Shown here: positions 37,282 through 57,674 of the stretch, one piece after another
Layout: every line of letters begins with the position of its first letter
How positions within the stretch are numbered: position 1 is the first letter of the stretch
The notes under the pieces: model-generated
Told to the model about the DNA's origin: nothing
What the model saw: only the letters and a program-made list of their open reading frames with translations
Database searches by the model: none
DNA from: Verrucomicrobiia bacterium
GTDB taxonomy: Bacteria > Verrucomicrobiota > Verrucomicrobiia > Limisphaerales > Pedosphaeraceae
Assembly (NCBI GenBank): GCA_036268055.1
Contig: DATAUW010000017.1
Span: forward strand, 496,001 to 560,000
DNA: 64,000 nt
Reading direction: 5' to 3'
Translations under genes and position numbers: made by a program

Positions 37282-40041
37282 TTATTTCCTATCGCCGCCC
37301 GCCGAAGGAGTGTTCGCGCCGGATTTATATTCTTTCAACCATTGTCCAATCTGGTCGGTTTCGGGCGCGTTAGGTGGGACGTTGGTCAGGTAGAGTTCGC
37401 AGTTTTTGATCAGCTCGGGAATGTCTTTGCGCCGCTGGGCGATATCGGCGAGGCCGTAGTAGGCCGGAAATGCCGTGGGCTGTTCGTGAATCACAGCCGT
37501 ATAGTCTTCATGCGCGGCGTTGAGTTTATCCATTTTTAGAAAAGCCAGACCACGAGCGAGGTGGGCGTCCACATCATTGGTTTTCAGATGGATCAAAGTA
37601 TTGAGCGGAAGGATGGCTTCATCATATTTTTTAAGCTCGATGAGGTCGAGACCCTTGACGAACAGCGCGCGGGAGTTTTCCGGTGAATTGGTAAGCGTGC
37701 GCTGTGCCTGCGCGAGGGAATTGCTGGTATCGCCAATGCGCAGGAATAATTCCGCCAGCCGCAATGACGCATCGGGCGAAGTGGGCGCGAGGCGGGCCGC
37801 GCGGCCAAATTGCTGGATGGCCTGGCGATACATGCGCGAGTCGAGGCAGACCAGGCCGAGTTGATAACATGCATTGGGCTCGTCAATGGGACCGTCCTGC
37901 AAAAGCGCCGCATCCCATTCACGGCCGCGGCCCAGTTTGTCAACGACGTGCGCGGCTGGATTTATGGTGAGCGTTTTATGCGCGCGCAAATCTTCGTTGC
38001 ATTGCAAATTCATTTGCGCGGCGCTGTTTTCCGGATTGAGCTTGCGGGCTTCGTCAAAACATTGGCCGGCCTCACTGAGCACCCCGGCGCGTTGCAAATC
38101 CACCCCCCAGGAATTGAGCATCATCGAATAATAAAACCCGGCGATTTGCGTGGGGCGATCCGGTTGCGGAGCCCGTCGCATGAGCGCGAGAAGCCGTTGC
38201 TGAAAATTTTTATCCGGTGCGGGCCGCGGTTGCATGAGTGCCAGCAGCCGGGGCAATCTCTCTTCGCGGAAGGCGCGCCAAAAATCGGTGTTCGTCGTGT
38301 AAATCTCCCTGGTGAGCGGCGGGGGAAACAGGGCGTTGGTGGGATAAGGGCGCAGTTGATTGAAAATCCCCTCGGTTTGTGGGAAGAAATTTTCAGTCAG
38401 GAAACCTGCGCACGGGTGCATGAAATATACGCCGCCGCTGCGGGAAAAATGACGCAGCCAACTTACGACGACCGCCGGGTTGGTGGCACTGGCAAAAGGG
38501 ACGGCGAGCGTCTGCGCAATTTTGAATTGCGGATTCTCATCGGACACGGATTTTAAATAATTGGGAAAACGCGTGATGAGCGTCGCATCCACCAGCAGGT
38601 AGTCGGATTTTTTTCCACTGCGGATGAGGCGCGTGGCCAGGCCGTTGAGACGATCGGGATCTTCGCTGAGGATCGCGGAACCGGGCGGTGGCAGCGTGCT
38701 TTCGGCCAGATCGAGATAGTCGGACACGGCATCGTGCCGCTGGCGAAGAATGTCCGGCAGGTTTCTTCCAAGCATGATAGCGGGCGCGAGGAACACCAGC
38801 GCCCAGACTGCCGCGATGGACGTGACGTTCAACATGCGATTGAACGAACGGTCGCGCCGGTTATCGCGATGCCGGCGCATTCCAAACACCAGCAAAAAAT
38901 AACCGGCATAATATCCGACGCTCAAGGCATTCAGGAAATACAGCGGCAGACAGGCGTAGATGGGTTGAACGCGCGTCGGGCTGAAGGGCGCATCCGCCGC
39001 GACCCATAACGCCAGGAGCAGGAAGACGGCATGAATAAAATGGAAAAGCCAGGTGACGATCGGGGCCGAAGTAGTCGTCTGCCGCGTGACGCGCGACCAG
39101 CGAATGCCCATGAAAGCCACCGGCACAATGGTGGTGAGGACAAGATAAAGTATGATTCTTGCCGGCAACGCGCGCGAGCGCAAAAGCAAATCGTACTGAT
39201 GCAGCACGAACTTCAGCATGGGCCAGAAATTCACATGGTTTCTTCGCGAACATGAGGCGATCAGCGGAAGCAGGAGAATGGTCATGCAACCGGCAAGCCA
39301 CAGCACGGCCATTCGTAAAGGCAGCCGGAATTCGATTTGTTTTCCCTTGAGAAACCGTGCGAAATGAACTGGATTGAAAAAATTAAAGAGGCCTTTCATC
39401 CAAAATATCGCGAGCAGGAAAGCAGGCAGATAGGCGACCATTGCCCAGTCTTCAGCGGCGGCCAGGCCAGCCACAAAAGTGAACTTCAACAACCACGATT
39501 CATCCTCTGAAAGACGAAATTCGAGCAGGCAGCGGACGAGGTAGGCGAAGAGTAACAAGTCAACCATCTCACCGGTGGCGGCCACGGAATGATGCCAGAA
39601 CGCAGCCTGCAATCCGCACATGAGAACTGCGAGCACAGGTGGAACCCATGCGCTCGGAATGGTCAGAAAAGCGAGGTGATTGGAATTGCGCTGGCGTTCC
39701 AGACGGGTGCGATCATGCGGCAGGATGGCAGCGCAACGGGCGAGCAGCGCCAGCGCGAGCGCGGCACAAATGACGGTGAAGAAATTGATGGCCAGGGGAA
39801 TCCACGCGCCCGGCAGCCAGCGAAAAGGATAAGTGACCAGATAATTGATCGGGGCAGCCAGTTCGGTTTGCCAAATGAGATGATCGAGATTGGCTATCGT
39901 GCGAAGGCTTTCGGGAGAGGTCGAATGCTGAAGCGTGAACGTGTAGAACAAAAGCATCCCGGCGGCGAGAATCCAGGGAAGCGTGGACGTGTTAAAAGTC
40001 GAACGCCCGGGGTGTGAATGTTCACGGCTGCTGGTGGTCAC
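37282..40041 (-). CDS. DUF2723-like membrane protein (glycosyltransferase fold) with C-terminal TPR repeats
   Basis: 919 residues. The first about 420 hold a dozen membrane helices in the pattern of DUF2723/GT-C proteins (SPESLRTIANLDHLIWQTELAAPINYLV...AWIPLAINFFTVICAALALALLARC; LQAAFWHHSVAATGEMVDLLLF). A periplasmic region follows, then about six TPR repeats (YQLGLVCLDSRMYRQAIQQFGRAARLAPTS; LFVKGLDLIELKKYDEAILPLNTLIHL; YYGLADIAQRRKDIPELIKNCELYL). Lipid-linked sugar transfer to proteins or polysaccharide is possible. The usual HPPGYP motif of DUF2723 is not seen. The gene converges with eboF (5 bp between stops) and lies downstream of the PEP-CTERM gene beyond a terminator. Confidence 0.75.
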   Translation of the reverse strand: MTTSSREHSHPGRSTFNTSTLPWILAAGMLLFYTFTLQHSTSPESLRTIANLDHLIWQTELAAPINYLVTYPFRWLPGAWIPLAINFFTVICAALALALLARCAAILPHDRTRLERQRNSNHLAFLTIPSAWVPPVLAVLMCGLQAAFWHHSVAATGEMVDLLLFAYLVRCLLEFRLSEDESWLLKFTFVAGLAAAEDWAMVAYLPAFLLAIFWMKGLFNFFNPVHFARFLKGKQIEFRLPLRMAVLWLAGCMTILLLPLIASCSRRNHVNFWPMLKFVLHQYDLLLRSRALPARIILYLVLTTIVPVAFMGIRWSRVTRQTTTSAPIVTWLFHFIHAVFLLLALWVAADAPFSPTRVQPIYACLPLYFLNALSVGYYAGYFLLVFGMRRHRDNRRDRSFNRMLNVTSIAAVWALVFLAPAIMLGRNLPDILRQRHDAVSDYLDLAESTLPPPGSAILSEDPDRLNGLATRLIRSGKKSDYLLVDATLITRFPNYLKSVSDENPQFKIAQTLAVPFASATNPAVVVSWLRHFSRSGGVYFMHPCAGFLTENFFPQTEGIFNQLRPYPTNALFPPPLTREIYTTNTDFWRAFREERLPRLLALMQPRPAPDKNFQQRLLALMRRAPQPDRPTQIAGFYYSMMLNSWGVDLQRAGVLSEAGQCFDEARKLNPENSAAQMNLQCNEDLRAHKTLTINPAAHVVDKLGRGREWDAALLQDGPIDEPNACYQLGLVCLDSRMYRQAIQQFGRAARLAPTSPDASLRLAELFLRIGDTSNSLAQAQRTLTNSPENSRALFVKGLDLIELKKYDEAILPLNTLIHLKTNDVDAHLARGLAFLKMDKLNAAHEDYTAVIHEQPTAFPAYYGLADIAQRRKDIPELIKNCELYLTNVPPNAPETDQIGQWLKEYKSGANTPSAGGDRK

Positions 40042-40172: not shown

Positions 40173-40952
40173 TCAGGCTTTGAATTTGCGGCGAGCGAGG
40201 CCGAGAGCCGTAACCGCGAAACCGAGCAACGGCAGAGTAGTGGTGGCATCCGGGCCGCCCACCGTCTTGGTGCCGGTCGTTTCATAAAGCAAACCCTGGG
40301 AACCGGTGGTTTTGCCAGTGGAAGAGGTCGGCGCGAGCCATTCCACGTTTTGTTCAGCCGGGAGATTGTTCAGATTGTTCAACACGGAGCAAGCGTATTG
40401 TTCAGCCAGCGATACGGCACTCGCATCATAAGTGGTCACGAGTTGAAAACCCTTGTTGGAGCTGCTGGAAAACTGGGAGGTGGTGAAGCTTCCGGGAGTG
40501 ATGTTATTGTAAAGCAATTCCCAAATGGCCAACTGCAAACCGGCAGTCTGAGTCGCCGCAGTCTGTCCGGCAGCGAGCGGGGCATTCTGGTCGTTATACC
40601 AAAGTTTCGCCACATTTTGAATACCGCCGGTGATCCAGGCCGGAGCCACGCCCGTGGCGGAACCCAAAGCGGTCGGCGTGTAATTATAGGTATTGGCAAG
40701 TACCGCACCGATGTCGGTGCAATAGGTCAAAAGGGTGCTCGAATAGTTCGGGTTGGAGGTCGTCATGATGAACTGGCCGACCGAGGCATACGTGCCCTGG
40801 CTTGAACCGTTAATCTTGATGTCCATGGAAACGCCGCCGCCGGTTTCGCCGGTGTAGGTATAGGAGACGGTATCGGCCGAGGCGACTTGCGCGATGCTGA
40901 CCAAGCCAGCAGCCAGCGCAACCAATTTCCCAGTAGAGAGCAGCTTTTTCAT
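40173..40952 (-). CDS. PEP-CTERM/VPDSG-sorted surface protein with thioester-domain signatures
   Basis: 259 residues from ATG 40952, with in-frame ATGs at 40970 and 40991. A signal peptide (LVALAAGLVSIAQVASA) leads the protein. The tail GGPDATTTLPLLGFAVTALGLARRKFKA has a Pro-Asp motif, a hydrophobic helix and Arg/Lys end, as exosortase substrates do in Verrucomicrobia. In the body, C78 in TYCTDIG and Q140 in LQLAIWELL match the Cys and Gln motifs that form an internal thioester in surface TED adhesins. A sigma-54 promoter lies upstream and a terminator downstream, so it is monocistronic. No exosortase is in the window. Confidence 0.85.
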   Translation of the reverse strand: MKKLLSTGKLVALAAGLVSIAQVASADTVSYTYTGETGGGVSMDIKINGSSQGTYASVGQFIMTTSNPNYSSTLLTYCTDIGAVLANTYNYTPTALGSATGVAPAWITGGIQNVAKLWYNDQNAPLAAGQTAATQTAGLQLAIWELLYNNITPGSFTTSQFSSSSNKGFQLVTTYDASAVSLAEQYACSVLNNLNNLPAEQNVEWLAPTSSTGKTTGSQGLLYETTGTKTVGGPDATTTLPLLGFAVTALGLARRKFKA

Positions 40953-41028
40953 ATTGTTTTCGATTGTCATTCTAAAAATTATGTCCGGCACTTCTGAGTG
41001 ATGTCACCTGACAAGTAAGAGGGAGTTC

Positions 41029-41044
41029 AGCAATATTCTTGCCA
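41029..41044 (-). promoter_or_regulatory. Sigma-54 (-24/-12) promoter of the PEP-CTERM gene
   Basis: On the minus strand the sequence is TGGCAAGAATATTGCT, with GG and GC separated by ten bases, matching the TGGCAC-N5-TTGCT consensus at nearly every key base. Transcription would start near 41019, leaving an untranslated leader of about 65 bases before ATG 40952. PEP-CTERM systems in other bacteria use the sigma-54 activator PrsR. Confidence 0.75.
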
Positions 41045-41102
41045 ATCGCGAAAGGGGTTTTGGCATATTGCGCTAACCGCTTATGCTAAGATACTTGTGA
41101 AA

Positions 41103-41115
41103 TTGCATACTGCAA
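41103..41115. promoter_or_regulatory. Palindrome, possible enhancer site for a sigma-54 activator
   Basis: TTGCATACTGCAA is a perfect TTGCA-N3-TGCAA dyad about 78 bp upstream of the -12 element at 41029. NtrC-type activators bind such dyads at this kind of distance. The rest of 41045-41400 shows nothing else I can name. Confidence 0.5.
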
Positions 41116-41400
41116 ACCGCCAGACAGTTTCACTGTTAAATGAAGTGTTTTTTGTAAAGCTTTCCGACGTTTTTTCGGGGCTTTTAAACTTAGGAACGGC
41201 TAAGAAATGACATTATTTCCAAAATCTTTGAAATATAAGGGGTTTTCAAAAGGAATAATGATGGGAAGAAGACCCTCGGGCTGCGAATGAGGATTGTAAA
41301 TGTTTCCGACGAATGCGCCGGTACAAGGGCCAGCCGATTACTTGCGTTGCAGTCGGTTTAAGGAGAGGCGGTTAAGACGGCATTGCCGACTTCGATCTAT

Positions 41401-42636
41401 CTAGCGCCGCCGACGGGCCGGGCCGAAATAATAGCCCCCACTCAGGCGGACGCCTTTGACTTTGCCGGGATAGCCTTGCGGCTGGCCGGGCTTGCCTTCT
41501 TCAAAAAGGGCGGTGTAGCGGTAATTAAAATTCTCCAGTTTCACGCGTTCGACTTTCTTGCCGATGAAGCGCTCGATGGCGTGAACATGTTGAGCATCCT
41601 CGGCGACCATAAGGGTGAAGGCATCACCCGTCGCCTCGGCCCGGCCCGTGCGGCCAATGCGATGGATGTAATCTTCCGGATGCTGCGGCACGTCGTAATT
41701 GATCACGTGACTGACATCGGCGATGTCCAAACCACGCGCGGCGATGTCCGTGGCGACGAGGACCTCAAACTTGCCATTGCGAAAACCCTTCAAGGCGTCT
41801 TCACGTTCGCGTTGCGTGCGATTGGAATGCAGCACGGCAACGGCGTGATTATTTTTCTTGAGCAGCCCCGCGATGCGATCCGCGCGATGTTTCGTGCGGC
41901 AAAAAACAATGACCGACTCGTAATGCACTCGTTCGAGCAATTCCCGCAACAGATCGCTCTTTTGGTCTTCGGCTACTGGGTAAATGACGTGCTTGACGGT
42001 TTCCGCCGGCGAACGGCGCGCCCCGATCTCAATCGTTTGCGGCGACTTCATCGCCCACTTGATCAAGGTTTCGATCTGCACCGGAACCGTGGCCGAGAAA
42101 AGCGAGGTATGGCGATTGCGCGGGCACTTGTCAACGATGCGGCGCACATCCGGCAAAAAGCCCATGTCCAGCATGCGGTCGGCTTCGTCGAGCACCAGAA
42201 ATTCAATCTTATCGAGCTTGCAAGTCCCACGTTCGAGATGGTCAAGCAGGCGGCCGGGAGTTGCGATGAGAATATCCACGCCCGAGCGTAAGGCATCCAT
42301 TTGCTTGCCATAGCCCACGCCGCCATAGAGCACCGCGGCGCGCAAATTTGTGAAACGCGAGAAGTCGCGCACGGCCGTTTCCACCTGTGCCGCGAGTTCG
42401 CGCGTCGGCTCCAAAATGAGCACGCGCGGGGCAGGGGAATGCTGGCCGAGCTTCGAGAGAATGGGCAGCGCGAACGCCGCCGTTTTTCCAGTGCCGGTTT
42501 GGGCGCTGCCGATAACATCCTGCCCAGCCATGATCAAAGGAATGGCGCGAAGCTGAATCGGCGTCGGTTCGGTGTAACCCATGGCTTTGACCCCGTCCAC
42601 CATGGTGCTTGAAAGGCCCAGTGCGCTAAATGGCAT
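41401..42636 (-). CDS. DEAD-box RNA helicase (RhlE-like)
   Basis: 411 residues. All core motifs are present: F-S-A-L-G-L with Q motif TPIQLRAIP, motif I AQTGTGKT (45-52), PTRELA, TPGRLLD, DEAD in VLDEADRMLD, SAT, IVFCRTKHRAD, ARGLDIADV and HRIGRTGR. The short basic tail (GYYFGPARRRR) is RhlE-like. It unwinds RNA in ribosome assembly or decay. It lies 31 bp after the RGG-rich gene in the same direction, suggesting joint expression. Confidence 0.95.
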   Translation of the reverse strand: MPFSALGLSSTMVDGVKAMGYTEPTPIQLRAIPLIMAGQDVIGSAQTGTGKTAAFALPILSKLGQHSPAPRVLILEPTRELAAQVETAVRDFSRFTNLRAAVLYGGVGYGKQMDALRSGVDILIATPGRLLDHLERGTCKLDKIEFLVLDEADRMLDMGFLPDVRRIVDKCPRNRHTSLFSATVPVQIETLIKWAMKSPQTIEIGARRSPAETVKHVIYPVAEDQKSDLLRELLERVHYESVIVFCRTKHRADRIAGLLKKNNHAVAVLHSNRTQREREDALKGFRNGKFEVLVATDIAARGLDIADVSHVINYDVPQHPEDYIHRIGRTGRAEATGDAFTLMVAEDAQHVHAIERFIGKKVERVKLENFNYRYTALFEEGKPGQPQGYPGKVKGVRLSGGYYFGPARRRR

Positions 42637-57531: not shown

Positions 57532-57674
57532 TTTTCCCCGGATTAAAAACCATCTGCCACTTGTAACCTATCCCGACTTGAATTCAAATCCTTTGCCATC
57601 GTCTCCGCGACAATCTTCACTGCATAAAAAAGCATTGGCCGTCCGCGCAAAAATTCGTTATCTCGATAGTAGAA

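Follow-up and report, generated by a model that had tools for sequence, protein, structure and literature searches.

The window that we analysed, a 64,000-nt stretch of a Verrucomicrobiia bacterium genome, contains a gene for a 259-aa exported protein preceded by a large intergenic region that holds a sigma-54-type promoter element, two copies of a second conserved motif and a short palindrome (Table 1). The tail of the protein, GPDATTTL, is probably of the VPDSG type and is not of the VPEP-type PEP-CTERM class. PF18205 scores the gene at 27.1 bits in its genomic frame and the isolated protein at 23.8 bits (cut-off 25), and TIGR03778 scores the protein at 15.5 bits against a cut-off of 22. A paralogue on contig C38 is 56% identical; in a footprinting attempt across seven genomes of the same family we found no homologue, leaving the C38 paralogue as the sole relative. 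An AlphaFold model of the product built from three sequences had a mean pLDDT of 35 and was unusable.

Table 1 Features of the regulatory region and the gene that it precedes (window coordinates)
Feature	Position	Strand	Description
Controlled gene, 259-aa exported protein	40173..40952	minus	Probable VPDSG-type C-terminal sorting signal (GPDATTTLPLLGFAVTALGLARRKFKA) and TED-like (Cys-Gln thioester) region
Intergenic regulatory region, 448 nt	40953..41400	minus	Between the 259-aa gene and a DEAD-box helicase ORF (41401-42636)
Sigma-54 -24/-12 element (motif 2)	41029..41045	minus	TTGGCAAGAATATTGCT; GG-N10-GC; equivalent sites at sister genes
TTGCA-N3-TGCAA dyad	41103..41115		TTGCATACTGCAA; exact palindrome; probably chance
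Proximal copy of motif 1, putative binding site of the activator PrsR	41153..41169	minus	CGTCGGAAAGCTTTACA; lies 107 nt upstream of the promoter element; 11/11 conserved positions
Distal copy of motif 1	41295..41311	minus	CGTCGGAAACATTTACA; 125 nt farther upstream than the proximal copy; 11/11 positions

The -24/-12 site reported ahead of this gene is present, with exact GG-N10-GC spacing on the minus strand and an end 76 nt from the ATG at 40952 (58 nt from a possible alternative in-frame ATG at 40970). Its sequence differs from YTGGCACGRNNNTTGCW by a single mismatch, falls within TGGCA/TTGCW and scores 30/31 on a weighted consensus, and the 76-nt distance to the start codon agrees with the value of about 71 nt (SD 38.5) for the PEP-CTERM box. 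Sigma-54 patterns with up to two mismatches match 39 times in the window versus 41.6 expected; genome-wide, the exact pattern is commoner than its reverse (37 versus 10 matches). The -24/-12 element gains its significance through a partner motif and through sister genes, and not alone.

This partner, motif 1, is a 17-mer of the form CGTCGG-N6-TTACA that the preliminary description had not noticed. Both copies in the window read CGTCGG-N5-TTTACA, and the distal copy lies 249 nt from the promoter. Motif 1 is an imperfect dyad (yGT...ACA) and the likely operator. Doubled sites also occur at several sister genes, and the motif recurs in other Verrucomicrobiota. Elsewhere in the window, a lone 10/11 match (AGTCGGGATAGGTTACA, 57562-57578, minus strand) near a start codon is probably due to chance.

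We gathered the VPDSG-CTERM and VPEP-type genes of the same genome by HMM and scored their upstream regions against a background of 116 genes, taken from 400 kb, whose upstream intergenic DNA measured 150 nt or more. A composite of motif 1 and a sigma-54 site 80-112 nt apart precedes 9 of the 11 VPDSG-CTERM genes but none of the 21 VPEP-type PEP-CTERM genes and none of the 116 background genes. At nine VPDSG-tailed genes of the genome, GG-N10-GC sites lie 64-148 nt before the ATG and the common 17-mer stands about 100 nt farther 5'. The proposal that such a -24/-12 promoter marks PEP-CTERM genes therefore stands for the VPDSG-CTERM class and fails for PEP-CTERM genes in general. A regulon of all PEP-CTERM genes was rejected, as sigma-54 sites precede 4 of the 21 VPEP-type genes versus 12 of the 116 background genes, no significant excess (p=0.27). 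A strict version of the composite occurs seven times genome-wide, always before VPDSG-type genes (control, 0), and found a gene (C12:225374, tail APDVSATAPLFALALGSLSAFASRKNRAAK) that the tail HMM had overlooked. As motif 1 was first recognised by eye in these same promoters, p-values from this genome are inflated; its significance must come from elsewhere, and other genomes provide the independent test.

Individual loci of this genome show other arrangements. One of the 11 genes (L011, G000:C39) has a PEATST tail and a perfect motif 1 whose spacer measures 63 nt, a proteobacterial distance that is unlike the genome's other promoters and places it outside the composite. At G000:C27:118079-118186 (L127, L128), motif 1 is present twice, with a sigma-54 site at a distance of 98 nt; the short ORF that follows (MKVSKLNLLLGTALVLCSLG...) lacks a VPDSG tail and may be an additional regulon member. 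The VPEP-type genes L056 (G000:C23:40215) and L018 (G000:C19:46341) have good sigma-54 sites (TTGGCACCAGCTTTGCT and GTGGCAAGACTTCTGCT) and no motif 1, and are perhaps driven by another activator.

The earlier suggestion of a sigma-54/PrsR system is well supported by gene content, with PrsR, PrsK, PrsT, an XrtC-like exosortase and RpoN (one gene) all encoded. Polysaccharide genes, the exosortase, PrsT, two VPDSG genes, PrsK and PrsR lie within 27 kb on contig C10, and the search for an NtrC-type gene near the exosortase led to PrsR itself, about 16 kb away. PrsR scores 609.5 bits (cut-off 502.6), PrsK 422.6 (300) and PrsT 495.5 (312.2); the best model for the XrtC-like exosortase is TIGR04151 at 273 bits, below its cut-off of 300. 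The genome encodes nine NtrC-type activators; L082 alone among the activators scanned is PrsR by the curated cut-off, and a survey of the class likewise counts one PrsR in the genome. A recognition-helix segment, RPT[LF]Y, is common to PrsR of both Verrucomicrobiota and Proteobacteria where readable and occurs in none of the eight other NtrC-type activators of this genome.

As an independent test, we used 67 loci around prsR in other genomes, MAG-derived loci among them; nearly all are from Verrucomicrobiota, including Limisphaerales, Opitutaceae, Chthoniobacterales, Akkermansiaceae, Pelagicoccus and DG1235. PrsK is encoded in 60 of these loci, PrsT in 41 and XrtC in 31. Contigs labelled Planctomycetes or Gammaproteobacteria (L164, L173 and L159) carry a verrucomicrobial-type PrsKR-XrtC cluster, which suggests misbinning or transfer; the layouts of L164 and L173 are nearly identical. 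The 67 loci yield 40 composites versus 1 in a control that used the reversed motif 1, and the genes that follow nearly always have VPDGG/VPDSG/VPDAG tails, with the consensus yGTCGGaa.t.yTTACA for motif 1 and tTGGCAtg-N5-TGCT for motif 2 and sigma-54 sites that reach the full 31/31. Spacings between the two motifs in Verrucomicrobiota fall at 84-86, 96-100, 106-109, 118-122 and 133 nt, mostly 96-109; their period of about 11 bp was reached by 0 of 5000 smoothed nulls, in a list reduced manually to a single spacing for each promoter, in which some loci are closely related and values are not all independent. Such 11-bp steps fit an activator that has to bind on a single face of the DNA. In a survey of 208 genomes of the class, the strict composite is present in 7 of 12 PrsR-positive and 3 of 196 PrsR-negative genomes (p=2.9e-8; p=3.6e-7 without the genome studied here), its exact form being missing from the other 5 PrsR genomes. 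It replaced a loose class-wide pattern (TTACR, CGTCGR, GG-N10-GC) that was swamped by matches in coding sequence.

The arrangement recalls the PEP-CTERM box described in Proteobacteria by Haft et al. 2006, a 17-nt motif 1 ending in TTTACA and sometimes repeated, followed by a sigma-54 motif 2 after 62.8 +/- 10.6 nt (32-92) and, about 71 nt later, by the ATG (PMC1569441). The two share the TTTACA-ending motif that may repeat, the sigma-54 motif some 70 nt before the start codon, a large upstream intergenic region, and PrsR, PrsK and PrsT that pass the curated cut-offs and are encoded close to exosortase and polysaccharide genes. They differ in phylum, in the start of motif 1 (C/T-GTCGG in Verrucomicrobiota versus TGTC[A/G/C] in the proteobacterial box), in a spacer that advances by helical steps and measures about 97 or about 108 nt (the 107 nt of the present promoter exceed the proteobacterial range) and in targets, here the VPDSG-CTERM genes of a genome that encodes an XrtC-like exosortase, to the exclusion of VPEP genes. 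By sequence, the element thus resembles the PEP-CTERM box in its predicted working and, as spacer length and target class differ, is a variant and not a plain member. In Vibrio, Photobacterium and Nitratidesulfovibrio plasmids that encode PrsR, we found motif-1-like sites at 4 of the 12 PEP-CTERM genes examined (TGTCGATATATTTTACA, TGTCGGATAGGTTGACA, TGTCAGTATTTTTTACA and TGTCCATTTTTTTTACA, at 71, 76, 51 and 61 nt), and the PrsR homologue on the N. vulgaris plasmid is 47% identical to PrsR here. Experimental precedents come from related systems. The RpoN1-dependent PEP-CTERM gene pepA of Aquincola tertiaricarbonis has a -24/-12 promoter of the GG/GC type that has been mapped, with an enhancer predicted upstream (PMC9850573); it has the same kind of promoter but is betaproteobacterial, of the PEP-CTERM type and tested experimentally. 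DVUA0057, the PrsR of Desulfovibrio vulgaris, bound its five predicted PEP-CTERM targets in vitro (PMC3333781), and is likewise a PrsR-type activator although from another phylum and serving another sorting class.

We consider it very probable that the region upstream of the 259-aa gene contains an enhancer-dependent sigma-54 promoter under PrsK-PrsR two-component control, a verrucomicrobial, VPDSG/XrtC-specific variant of the known regulon. The sequences show motifs that keep a fixed helical spacing, are confined to VPDSG-CTERM genes and co-occur with PrsR; from these we infer a chain of phosphorylation, binding, activation and sorting. PrsR would be phosphorylated by PrsK and bind, by means of its Fis-type helix-turn-helix, the CGTCGG-N6-TTACA sites that lie 107 nt and also 249 nt upstream; the imperfect dyad of motif 1 would suit a Fis-type dimer, and the presence of two copies may raise occupancy. 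A DNA loop would then bring the AAA+ domain of PrsR to RNA polymerase-sigma-54 at TTGGCAAGAATATTGCT for remodelling. The surface protein would be switched on together with other VPDSG-CTERM genes and sorted by the XrtC-like exosortase, with the VPEP-type PEP-CTERM genes of the genome remaining outside the PrsR regulon.

Motif 1 and the sigma-54 promoter could both be real and yet serve a different NtrC-type activator, for which the nine activators in the genome leave room. We regard this as very improbable, as only one of the activators scanned is PrsR by the curated cut-off and the class survey counts one as well, motif 1 tends to be present in the genomes that have PrsR and clusters around prsR, and the recognition-helix segment matches proteobacterial PrsR and not the other activators of this genome. 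It is extremely unlikely that the -24/-12 match arose by chance, with the gene read from another promoter and the shared 17-mer representing some other element; a single near-match of this kind in 64 kb would not in itself exceed chance, but the two elements recur together at most sister genes at a nearly fixed, helically phased distance, are never paired in the background and include full-consensus sigma-54 sites in other genomes.

The same promoter could also be combined with a different operator, and the preliminary description had suggested that the TTGCA-N3-TGCAA dyad could be that of PrsR. The dyad is exact as described, but it lies 57 nt from the -24 element and not about 78 nt. Its perfection, its position between motif 1 and the promoter and the lack of any exact copy in the 400 kb of background sequence speak for a role as operator of PrsR or another regulator. 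Against this, the dyad is missing at 10 of the 11 promoters of the VPDSG group, as it is at all 21 VPEP-type genes, all 116 background genes and all 35 promoters in other genomes, and the promoters of the VPDSG group and of other genomes have the 17-mer CGTCGG-N6-TTACA in common instead. The promoter of the C38 paralogue lacks it, copies with up to one mismatch are as frequent in the window as expected (4 versus 4.2), and about 40% of background upstream regions have a perfect dyad of the 5-5 type whose loop is likewise 3 nt long. We therefore rejected the dyad as the operator, a role that is very unlikely for it under any regulator; it is probably a chance palindrome.

We think it likely that in Verrucomicrobiota PrsK-PrsR and sigma-54 form a dedicated switch of the VPDSG/XrtC class, with the VPEP class regulated in some other way within the same cell, and that the activator acts from farther upstream than in Proteobacteria, by several helical turns, and always on the same face of the DNA. 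The whole unit occurs across Verrucomicrobiota, tied to a different sorting signal; the founding paper reported the box in Proteobacteria only and listed Verrucomicrobium spinosum without Prs proteins (PMC1569441). Our literature search, of work other than the 2012 exosortase classification, found no papers on VPDSG or XrtC, and an earlier mention of Prs proteins with XrtC is possible. The composite offers a sequence-only route to listing predicted XrtC substrates, as with the one that tail models overlooked, and makes the link between exosortase class and transcription testable. Promoters with helical spacing steps constitute a natural series for the study of sigma-54 activation at a distance.

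The product of the controlled gene and its neighbourhood have further features. Residues ~75-150 of the 259-aa protein, like L003 and L097, contain YC[TL]D/FCLD...LQLAIW, a pattern that recalls the Cys-Gln thioester domain found in adhesins of Gram-positive bacteria; the TED model (PF08341) scores the 259-aa protein at 21.5 bits (cut-off 22), and of the three proteins of the genome in which such a region is paired with an exosortase-type tail, the third scores 15.4 bits. Downstream on the same strand (37282-40041), the window encodes a 919-aa TMEM260-like O-mannosyltransferase-type membrane protein with C-terminal TPR repeats, which is possibly related to glycosylation.
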